From: Minisyncoccota bacterium | GTDB taxonomy: Bacteria > Patescibacteriota > Minisyncoccia > Phycocordibacterales > Phycocordibacteraceae | Reading direction: 5' to 3' | Assembly (NCBI GenBank): GCA_017991635.1 | Contig: JAGOQE010000004.1 | Location: 1 to 40,000, forward strand | DNA length: 40,000 nt | In this document: positions 15,142 to 36,516 of the stretch, one piece after another | Position numbering within the stretch: position 1 is the stretch's first letter | How the letters are laid out: each line of letters starts with the position of its first letter | Position numbers and translations under genes: made by a program | Notes under the pieces: model-generated | The model's database searches: none | What the model was told of the DNA's origin: nothing | What the model saw: the letters and a program-made list of their open reading frames with translations, nothing else

Positions 15142-15498
15142 TTATCCCTCTGTACCACTTCTAGCCTTGGTGCGAACCTTTACAGGAGCCTGAGTCTTAG
15201 ACTGCTTCTTGACCTTGTCCTTTGATTCAATCTTCTCCTTCTTTACCTCGGGAGCCTCAAGTGCAAGAGCGTCCTTCTCCTTATCGTTCTTTGCGCGACG
15301 CTTCTCATCTTTCTTGATGGTCTTCTTGCGCTCTGGAACGATGAGCTTTCCACGGTACATACCGGTGGTCTCATCAAGGCGGTGTGGAAGACGAAGAGCG
15401 CCTGAAGCTTTATCCACGACGATATTAGTATTCTTCAAAGCGTGGTGGCTTCGGCGGTTCTTGGTGTGCGAACTAGTGTGACGCATTCGTACTGACAT
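15142..15498 (-). CDS. rpmF: Ribosomal protein bL32 with long Lys-rich tail, 118 aa
   Basis: The first 55 residues match bL32: MSVRMRHTSSHTKNRRSHHA, then ALRLPHRLDETTGMYRG, corresponding to 'KLPHRVCPNCGYYKG' of the zinc-binding type. Both Cys pairs are missing, so this is a zinc-free bL32. Residues 60-118 form a Lys/Glu-rich, very basic extension (ERKKTIKKDEKRRAKNDKEK) absent from ordinary bL32, which is about 56-60 residues. The ATG at 15498 is preferred: TG-G-TAAGGT (hexamer 15511-15506) ends 7 bases upstream. The frame stays open to 15720, but that part is GC-rich non-coding sequence and does not look like protein. Confidence 0.9.
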   Translation of the reverse strand: MSVRMRHTSSHTKNRRSHHALKNTNIVVDKASGALRLPHRLDETTGMYRGKLIVPERKKTIKKDEKRRAKNDKEKDALALEAPEVKKEKIESKDKVKKQSKTQAPVKVRTKARSGTEG

Positions 15499-15548
15499 GG
15501 GTAGTACCTTACCACAGGCCGTTAAAAAGTAAAAGAGCAAGCTATTAC

Positions 15549-15579
15549 TTGCAAAATAAGCCGTTATTACTGATGATAC
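15549..15579 (+). promoter_or_regulatory. Candidate plus-strand promoter upstream of the foldable region
   Basis: TTGCAA (15549-15554) and TGATAC (15574-15579) or ATGATA (15573-15578), spaced 18-19 bases, in an AT-rich stretch. Transcription would start near 15584, at the foot of the first hairpin of the gene-free region. Moderate match only. Confidence 0.35.
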
Positions 15580-15584
15580 ATAGA

Positions 15585-15884
15585 CCATCTGACTGCGCCA
15601 CCACTGCGAGCAGATGGCGACCTCAAGGGTAGCAAGAGCGCTCTTGGGTCGGCCAAAAAGGAACGCATCATCAACCCTTCTTCGGGGGAATCCTATGAAG
15701 AAGTGCCTTCCTTCGGCCACTGGGCCGCCGTGCGCCCGTCTCCCCTACCAAATCCCCACGTGAACGTTGGGGACTAGGTGACCGGGAGGCGCGCCCATTT
15801 CGCGCCCACACAGGACTCTCGAGGCTTCGGCCTTGATTCTTTGAGTCCCGCGCCTCGTCGACTTCTCCGGAAGACGACGAGGCG
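15585..15884 (+). ncRNA. Candidate structured non-coding RNA, about 300 nt, unassigned
   Basis: A 380-base stretch (15520-15899) holds no credible gene but is GC-rich and full of paired elements on the plus strand. In order: CCATCTG/CAGATGG (15585 onward), GACC-CAAG/CTTG-GGTC, CTTCTTC/GAAGAAG, a TCCCCACG hairpin near 15750, and GGACTC...GAGTCC enclosing TCGAGGC-TTCG-GCCTTGA. The last of these has a C(UUCG)G tetraloop, which favours the plus strand because the reverse complement does not give this loop. It closes with a 10-bp terminator-like hairpin (CGCCTCGTCG/CGACGAGGCG, 15851-15884). I looked for tmRNA, RNase P RNA, 6S and SRP RNA signatures on both strands and found none. The call rests only on foldability and flanking signals. 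Confidence 0.4.
15851..15884 (+). terminator. Terminator-like hairpin at the end of the candidate ncRNA
   Basis: CGCCTCGTCG/CGACGAGGCG stem with inner CTTC/GAAG closing a TCCG loop. Downstream, GTACTCATTGTTGTGTTT is only moderately T-rich. It could instead serve the minus-strand APH gene, whose stop lies 16 bases to the right. Confidence 0.45.
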
Positions 15885-15899
15885 TACTCATTGTTGTGT

Positions 15900-16883
15900 T
15901 TATGAGTTTAGAAAATCAACAAAGATGTCTAGATTTTCAGACAGATATTCAATTCTCTTTTGATCGTCGAATAAGAATCCATCGACCCTTGTATTCTCTT
16001 TTACATAGTGTTCACTTTCGACCCAAAAGCCATGAATAGCCTTTACGAAAAATAATTGCACACCTCTTTTAATTTCATCTTTAGAAATTGGATACACGCT
16101 CGAATACGCCTTAAGATAGGTTTTTGCATTTTCAAGATCCGTCTCAGTAACCTCTGCTGTCAGCAAGCCATAGATCATTGAACGGAACAATTCATAGGTG
16201 CGAGGCGAGTAATTCGTTTTTTCAAAATCAAAAACATACTGAACAGCATCGTGCTGATCAAAGAAAACGTTATGATCGAGGTAGTCACCATGCACTAAAT
16301 GGTCGCACTGCAAATTAAAGCTCTCAAAACGTAAGGTATTTGCTAACAGTAAATCTTTCTTCATGTACACACTCTCTAGCGCAGCTTTGTCAAAAGCATC
16401 AAGGGGGTCTTTCGCCTCAATCTGAATAAGAATATCTTCAATCTTCTTGAAAGTTTTTTCTTTATCCTCAATCTTAAAATGATCGTCAATTACTAACTGT
16501 GAGTTTTTACCCAAAAGGTGTATTTGTCCCAGCATCTCACCCATAGAAACAATTGCTGATTTTGTTAATGCACCTCTCTCAATATGTCTGCCATTAACAA
16601 ATGGAAAAACCGCGTAATACGCATTGCTAAACTCAAAAAATGTCTCTCCTGTTAGAAGTGGTATGGGGAGAATTACAGGGATTCCGCCATCAGCAAAATA
16701 TTTTTTGGAGGCGTGAATTTCTCTAATTCTTTTTGAATCATCAAATCTGTACTTCTTAAGAAAGAATTTCTGAGTACCACTTGAAATAACGTAGTTCTCG
16801 CTTAGAAAGCCTTTATCAACTTTTTCTGAGATAGAAACACATATTCCATATGCTGCATTAATCTTATTTAGAATTTCCTCCAC
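15900..16883 (-). CDS. APH-family phosphotransferase (aminoglycoside/choline kinase-like), 327 aa
   Basis: Protein-kinase-like small-molecule phosphotransferase. The catalytic loop HLVHGDYLDHNVFFD (near residues 192-206, HGDxxxxN type) and the metal-binding motif VFDFEKT (near 216-222) are intact. The N-terminal lobe has FFLKKYRFDD with the ATP-binding Lys. The overall form recalls homoserine kinase type II or SrkA-like enzymes; the substrate is unknown and antibiotic resistance should not be assumed. The start is GTG at 16883: a perfect extended -10, TGC-TATAAT (hexamer 16895-16890), ends 6 bases before it, predicting a leaderless GTG-start transcript. The gene is visibly AT-richer than everything around it, with codons such as AAA, TTT and ATT preferred, which suggests a foreign origin. 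Confidence 0.88.
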   Translation of the reverse strand: MEEILNKINAAYGICVSISEKVDKGFLSENYVISSGTQKFFLKKYRFDDSKRIREIHASKKYFADGGIPVILPIPLLTGETFFEFSNAYYAVFPFVNGRHIERGALTKSAIVSMGEMLGQIHLLGKNSQLVIDDHFKIEDKEKTFKKIEDILIQIEAKDPLDAFDKAALESVYMKKDLLLANTLRFESFNLQCDHLVHGDYLDHNVFFDQHDAVQYVFDFEKTNYSPRTYELFRSMIYGLLTAEVTETDLENAKTYLKAYSSVYPISKDEIKRGVQLFFVKAIHGFWVESEHYVKENTRVDGFLFDDQKRIEYLSENLDIFVDFLNS

Positions 16884-16926: not shown

Positions 16927-17508
16927 CTAAAGACCTTTTAAAAACCTTCGGCGGTGTAGTGGCGTGAGCCCATTCTTCTCTATAGCCTCATAGTGCGCCT
17001 TTGTGCCGTAGCCCTTATGTTTTTCAAAACCATACTCAGGATAGGATTTTGCATACTCACACATCAAACGGTCACGTGAGACCTTCGCCACAATTGAGGC
17101 AAGCATGATAGAAGGAATAAGACCGTCGCCTCCAACTACAGTCTCTTGCGTGTAACCTGGTGGCGCGGACAACAGTCCATCCAGATATACCTTTCCCTCT
17201 GAGGTAACGGGGAGAAGTTCTTCTACTCCTTTCCATACCGAACGACGTACCACTTCTGTAAGTCCAAGCTCATCAATAGCATCGGCTTCTTCGTATAACA
17301 CTACGTACCTAATTCCCTGTTCCTCTTTGATCGCTTCAAGTTCATTAAAAATTTTCTCACGTTTCTTTTCGGTAAGTTGCTTTGAGTCGTTCAAGGTTGG
17401 AAACAGCGCAAGGAGATCAATGTCCTCGGGCACAGACACGACACCAATAGAAAGGGGTCCTGCTAGAGGTCCTCTTCCTGCTTCGTCTACTCCCAAAATG
17501 AAATTCAT
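16927..17508 (-). CDS. rnhB: Ribonuclease HII, 193 aa
   Basis: Cleaves RNA in RNA-DNA hybrids and at single ribonucleotides in DNA. Motifs: GVDEAGRGPLAGPL with D8 and E9, NDSKQLTEKKRE, KVYLDG with D110, and GGDGLIPSIMLASIVAKVSRDR with D128 as the remaining acid (that stretch is split by no gap). The C-terminal part YGFEKHKGYGTKAHYEAI and LTPLHRRRF is typical. Length is normal for RNase HII. A TACACT -10-like hexamer (17521-17516) ends 7 bases before the ATG, with no Shine-Dalgarno. Confidence 0.96.
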   Translation of the reverse strand: MNFILGVDEAGRGPLAGPLSIGVVSVPEDIDLLALFPTLNDSKQLTEKKREKIFNELEAIKEEQGIRYVVLYEEADAIDELGLTEVVRRSVWKGVEELLPVTSEGKVYLDGLLSAPPGYTQETVVGGDGLIPSIMLASIVAKVSRDRLMCEYAKSYPEYGFEKHKGYGTKAHYEAIEKNGLTPLHRRRFLKGL

Positions 17509-36266: not shown

Positions 36267-36342
36267 GCCGGGATAGCTCAGTTGGTAGAGCAACGGTTTT
36301 GTAAACCGTAGGTCGCGAGTTCAAGCCTCGCTCCCGGCTCCA
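36267..36342 (+). tRNA. trnT: tRNA-Thr (anticodon TGT), CCA encoded
   Basis: A full 76-base cloverleaf: acceptor GCCGGGA/TCCCGGC, D-arm GCTC/GAGC, anticodon stem ACGGT/ACCGT with loop TTTGTAA (anticodon TGT, reading ACA and other ACN codons), variable AGGTC, T-arm GCGAG/CTCGC with loop TTCAAGC, discriminator T and encoded CCA. All stems pair without mismatch. It lies 18 bases after the thioredoxin-like gene. A partial broken copy follows downstream. Confidence 0.97.
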
Positions 36343-36363
36343 TATATAGTGCTTATGGATTAG

Positions 36364-36516
36364 GCAACGGTTTTGTAAGAAATGACCCCGGAAGATAACC
36401 GAGGTCATTTCTTTCTATCGTCGCTCTCTCGCACACCTAATGAACCCTCAAGTGTGGCTCGTTCGCTCGATAGTAAACCTCCGGTCTGAAGTTCAAGCCT
36501 CGCTCCCGGCTCCATA
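36364..36516 (+). pseudogene. Broken partial copy of tRNA-Thr, split by a 94-bp insert
   Basis: 36364-36378 repeats 15 bases of the intact tRNA (end of the D-arm through the anticodon loop, identical to 36290-36304). 36473-36479 repeats GTAAACC and, after an equal 10-base gap, 36490-36516 repeats 27 bases of the T-arm and acceptor with CCA (identical to 36318-36344). The acceptor 5' strand and most of the D-arm are missing, and the T-stem is broken, so it cannot make a tRNA. GTAA is present on both sides of the 94-bp insert (36379-36472). Confidence 0.8.
36377..36414 (+). terminator. Hairpin inside the split tRNA copy, probable tRNA-Thr terminator
   Basis: An 11-bp perfect stem AAGAAATGACC/GGTCATTTCTT with a 15-base loop and TTCTTTCT on the 3' side. 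It begins in the last bases of the copied anticodon loop. Confidence 0.6.

Follow-up and report, generated by a model that had tools for sequence, protein, structure and literature searches.

Positions 15581-15892 of the window, by which we mean the whole 40,000-nucleotide stretch of DNA analysed here, may serve as template for an orphan structured RNA, about 310 nt in length and so far confined to one species. They lie in a hypervariable slot flanked by rnhB and rpmF. The RNA reading is put forward tentatively, and we would place it a little short of an even chance. The region is a gene-free gap between rpmF and a gene of the APH family (Table 1), with a GC content of 61% as compared to 49% in the window. 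Open reading frames within it, on either strand, reach codon-usage z values of 1.1-2.1 only, against 5.5-7.0 for the adjacent genes. The fold predicted for the plus strand consists of six consecutive hairpins, each closed separately and without an overall closing stem. Base-pair probabilities are mostly above 0.9, the majority of them near 1, and the hairpins cover most of the 312 nt, leaving few free single-stranded stretches. A preliminary description of this DNA had pointed to a foldable GC-rich region devoid of genes and to at least five consecutive stems; both observations hold, with one stem above the claimed minimum, while the promoter and the terminator that it also proposed do not.

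Table 1. Positions in the window of the candidate RNA, its predicted hairpins and the neighbouring features.
Feature	Position	Strand	Support or remark
rpmF (ribosomal protein L32)	15142..15498	-	PF01783; start at 15498
rpmF extended -10 element TGTGGTAAGGT	15506..15516	-	leaderless-type promoter; genus-conserved
Terminator-like hairpin GCAAG-TAATAG-CTTGC, then TCTTTTACTTTTT	15525..15552	-	terminator scan
Candidate structured RNA, whole element	15581..15892	+ (preferred)	z, pair probabilities, fold definition
Hairpin P1 (CCATCTG...CAGATGG)	15585..15617	+	-14.0 kcal/mol
Hairpin P2, AAGA loop, two G-U pairs	15619..15650	+	-15.5 kcal/mol on plus, -10.4 on minus
Hairpin P3, long, internal loop; GGAA apical loop in centroid	15651..15718	+	-25.9 kcal/mol
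Hairpin P4, imperfect stem of 88 nt with three internal G-U pairs; UGAA loop	15721..15808	+	-46.5 kcal/mol
Hairpin P5, C(UUCG)G loop, TTCTTT bulge	15813..15848	+	-16.8 kcal/mol on plus, -12.9 on minus
Hairpin P6, C(UCCG)G loop; no proper U-tract 3'	15850..15885	+	-25.0 kcal/mol
APH-family phosphotransferase gene	15900..16883	-	PF01636; stop codon 15900-15902
rnhB (RNase HII)	16927..17508	-	PF01351; other flank of variable slot

The region is found on contig C5 of a 726 kb genome in 21 contigs, from an ultra-small bacterium of the Kaiserbacteria type; among named records, the closest relatives of its rpmF are those of Parcubacteria C7867 and of Candidatus Kaiserbacteria MAGs. The gene order rnc, nusB-nudix, rpmF, variable slot, rnhB, dnaE is conserved throughout the genus. 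Within this framework the content of the rnhB-rpmF slot differs in almost all relatives, with gaps of 4 to more than 1000 nt and differing small ORFs, and the slot is therefore hypervariable. In the genome studied here it holds the candidate RNA region together with the APH-family gene, an accessory gene of patchy distribution (5 of the 92 genus genomes carry it). Among the nearest relatives, the slot is near-empty in one (G075) and contains approx. 400 nt of unrelated sequence in another (G077). In relatives it usually carries small, fast-changing, Cys-containing and commonly Cys-rich ORFs, which are 80-110 aa long and share the orientation of rpmF.

The predicted fold exceeds chance clearly when compared with shuffled sequences, and with mixed results when compared with the intergenic regions of the same genome. 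Its z is -8.9 on the plus strand and -5.7 on the minus strand, and none of 100 shuffles folded equally well on either strand. As expected of a functional ncRNA, the fold exceeds in stability and definition what composition and other intergenic regions provide, although by shuffle z the region still ranks only 9th of 79 intergenic blocks, in a ranking headed by blocks that include tRNA-linked elements, an RNase P block and terminators. It comes 2nd of the 79 in GC content. By ensemble definition of the fold it comes first, with segments of tmRNA and 23S rRNA less well defined, a rank to be read in view of the fact that its block was positioned on the feature and the other blocks were placed blindly. 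A GC-corrected scan in 200-nt windows across the genome places it only 69th of 7231. Several slots of relatives are also hairpin-rich, with z below -5, and show no homology to the region; inspection of hairpin-rich slots in two other relatives (L023 and L101) showed that their architecture is not that of the region. The feature is real and its folding unusually good; in kind it is ordinary, an orphan ncRNA candidate.

Other structured elements were noted in this genome. The last ~15-18 nt of 14 out of 36 tRNA genes are directly repeated 130-280 nt downstream, and a 15th tRNA gene has an inverted copy only; the chance expectation of such a downstream repeat is estimated to be of the order of 1e-4 per tRNA. 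One example is found in the window (36267-36515, comprising tRNA-Thr at 36267-36342 and downstream sequence), and the others at loci L145-L188. Most of the hairpin-rich stretches enclosed in this way also carry an inverted copy of the T-arm/acceptor of the same tRNA, and recurrent motifs in them are (A)AAGCGTAATCGCGG, GTGTAATCACG, GTGAGGCGGGGTCGCG and GTGACGACGA. None matched Rfam. To judge from their arrangement, they look like small structured elements sitting at, and copying, tRNA 3' ends. Kinship with the candidate RNA was considered and dropped, as sequence similarity between the two is nil. Also, the intergenic region that holds tmRNA (C12:42828-43355) matches a long intergenic region of the same contig (C12:70048-70656) by BLAST, the latter possibly being a partial copy.

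As far as the searches show, the candidate RNA region is restricted to one species. It had no match in Rfam on either strand, be it at the gathering threshold or at an E value of 10. BLASTN against 92 genomes of the genus gave only matches of 17-35 nt, located in or near ftsZ, a secretion ATPase gene and other ORFs, which we judged to be due to chance. BLASTN against phages and plasmids yielded nothing, and exact searches with segments of the region in IMG/VR returned a single match, within a coding gene. A covariance model (R1), built from the single sequence and comprising 106 pairs, recovered the region alone from 92 genomes of the genus, 397 of the order and 380 of the phylum, in many-genome searches run with strict filters by which weak matches may be lost. 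The same model detected no homologue at 45 syntenic rpmF loci of GTDB r220, and only the region itself beside other APH genes and across its own genome, where no repeat or paralogue of it was found either. Two apparent leads were discarded. A stretch of 13 nt, CC[A/T]AAAAGGAACG, resembles sequence in the slot of the nearest relative, but lies there inside a different plus-strand ORF and without flanking pairing. A link of the RNA to the APH gene finds no support in another genome, which has an APH 53% identical to this one and no such RNA. A lineage-specific RNA, one of the two possibilities raised initially, remains the best reading of a region that is absent from every other genome of the genus (91) and from the syntenic loci.

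The sense strand of the candidate RNA is somewhat more probably plus than minus. C-UNCG-G hexamers occur four times on the plus strand and never on the minus strand, so that the C(UUCG)G tetraloop (the loop of P5) indeed exists in the plus sense only, as had been noticed from the outset. Two of the hexamers form hairpin loops (UUCG in P5, UCCG in P6), a cUNCGg type which is rare in the terminator hairpins of this genome (2 of 74). The plus-strand fold also includes 9 G-U pairs versus 4 on the minus strand, and its ensemble diversity is 15.2 versus 21.7. Loops, G-U pairs and fold definition therefore favour the plus strand; the call is weakened by the lack of TAnnnT on this strand and by the minus-strand read-through which a terminator-like hairpin implies. 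Regarding signals for transcription, the promoter placed initially at 15549-15579 could not be retained. The scan found no promoter-like site there, and the plus strand from about 15510 to 15600 contains no TAnnnT hexamer, a motif that 34 of the genome's 38 stable RNA genes have within 60 nt upstream. More generally, promoters in this genome take the form of an extended -10 element, TGnTAnnnT, whose end is 6-9 nt away from the start codon (seen at 115 of 681 genes, ~6 times background), a proximity which implies that leaderless mRNAs are widespread. The closing hairpin does not qualify as an intrinsic terminator, defined as a GC-rich hairpin with a U-tract directly behind it, since P6 lacks the latter; the terminator scan, even in loose form, accepts only P5 on the plus strand. 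On the minus strand, it accepts a hairpin outside the six, at 15552-15525, where the rnhB-APH mRNA probably terminates. With none earlier after the APH gene, this suggests that rnhB-APH transcription reads through the region.

The hairpins could then belong to that message. The minus-strand rnhB-APH mRNA would have a structured 3' untranslated tail, ending at 15552-15525 just before the rpmF promoter, and in this tail the hairpins would protect the transcript's 3' end or be processed off. Read-through is expected here, since no U-tract terminator is present on the minus strand between the APH stop codon and 15552; the minus strand folds well too, and bears a possible -10 (TAAACT) at 15910-15905. 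Against this, the UNCG loops, the usage of G-U pairs and the ensemble definition all point to the plus strand, and the 53% identical APH gene of the other genome has no such tail, so that we regard a 3' tail as unlikely. The hypervariability of the slot invites another explanation, namely that the region is an unselected hairpin-rich spacer, made of indel debris and stacked transcription-boundary hairpins, which yields no dedicated RNA product. The turnover of slot content in nearly all relatives, the strong folding of several of their slots without homology, and the modest rank by z within the genome are all consistent with a spacer. Debris would nevertheless hardly yield six contiguous hairpins whose pairs have probabilities close to 1 and whose ensemble is the best defined in the genome; moreover, the hairpins lack the T-tracts typical of terminators in this genome, and no copy of the region is seen elsewhere in it. 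On balance a spacer appears somewhat unlikely. Many relatives have small ORFs in the slot, and the region might likewise encode a small protein, for instance the 49-aa plus-strand ORF at 15614-15763. This ORF has a codon-usage z of 1.3, far from the values of its neighbours even if short length lowers the attainable value, no matching protein was seen by eye among the small ORFs of relatives, and the upstream promoter element of the genus is absent; coding capacity is thus very improbable.

The other possibility raised initially, a constitutive housekeeping RNA of diverged form (SRP, 6S, tmRNA or RNase P RNA), draws on the fact that neither SRP nor 6S RNA was detected by Rfam in this genome, whose Rfam inventory consists of rRNA, tRNA, RNase P RNA and tmRNA only. 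The last two have loci of their own, with RNase P RNA (RF00010) at C6:7396-7735 on the minus strand (134 bits) and tmRNA (RF00023) at C12:42886-43300 on the plus strand (100 bits). RF00010 did not match positions 15480-15960 even at an E value of 10, and no tmRNA was found in the window by covariance model or by ARAGORN. The 6S RNA model (RF00013) gave no match, and six separate hairpins do not make up the long duplex with a central bubble. SRP RNA (RF00169) was absent from the region and from 92 of 92 genomes of the genus; a motif search of the ORFs of this 96% complete genome revealed no GTPase motifs of Ffh or FtsY, and a diverged SRP RNA is unlikely for these two reasons, nor does any observation call for one. 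Nor did the region show any match to SRP or 6S RNA below threshold. The lack of signatures of these four RNAs reported in the preliminary description is thus borne out on both strands. Furthermore, an RNA needed by the cell should show in relatives whose NusB is 80% identical to that of this genome, and the region is missing from the rest of the genus; a housekeeping RNA is therefore, for practical purposes, excluded. As a separate observation, the SRP pathway may be missing from this Kaiserbacteria genus (RF00169 in 0 of 92 genomes, motifs absent in this genome).

We thus return to the orphan structured RNA, against which count the lack of a homologue, of a plus-strand promoter and of a U-tract terminator at the plus end, as well as the z values of other blocks, which are as strong, and the hairpin-rich unrelated slots of relatives. 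If it is correct, selection would act on the folded form of an RNA read from the plus strand. The compactness of the hairpins, the few free stretches and the little coding signal hint at a protein-binding role, in which the hairpin chain might form a stable, untranslated RNA offering helices to a protein; pairing with mRNAs or catalytic activity is less favoured as its mode of action. It is tempting to go one step further and to speculate, with more doubt, that the region is so far the only representative of a new class of ~310-nt RNAs in one Kaiserbacteria lineage, read from the plus strand as six tandem hairpins, absent from sequenced relatives, and perhaps acquired with or beside the accessory phosphotransferase gene.

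To our knowledge, little is known of ncRNAs of CPR bacteria beyond tRNA, rRNA, RNase P RNA and tmRNA. If transcribed, the region would give a highly reduced genome a structured RNA specific to its species, and would exemplify how rapidly such RNAs are gained and lost; if not, it would warn against taking a strong fold in a single genome as evidence of a conserved RNA. Bacterial structured RNAs concentrate in long, GC-rich intergenic regions (PMC8632094). The ncRNA candidates of the GC-IGR pipeline (PMC8632094, PMC8723152) resemble the region in being long, GC-rich, gene-free and without Rfam match, with a strong and well-defined fold, but they are backed by several homologues and by covariation, whereas the region is a single sequence. 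RNase P RNA of class A (RF00010) and tmRNA (RF00023) are comparable in length (~310-400 nt), in their multiple stems and in being GC-rich relative to the genome; unlike the region, which fits neither model, both have loci of their own elsewhere. Arrays of tandem interspaced guide RNAs (TIGR; PMC12045711) share with it a row of hairpin-like units and a small, possibly parasitic CPR bacterium as host, but they feature tandemly repeated edge and loop sequences, and the six hairpins have no direct repeats between them. Structured mRNA 3' tails and terminator clusters are similar in position, the region lying downstream of the APH gene and before a terminator-like hairpin on the minus strand. They differ in that the six hairpins are devoid of U-tracts and fold better as a plus-strand RNA.
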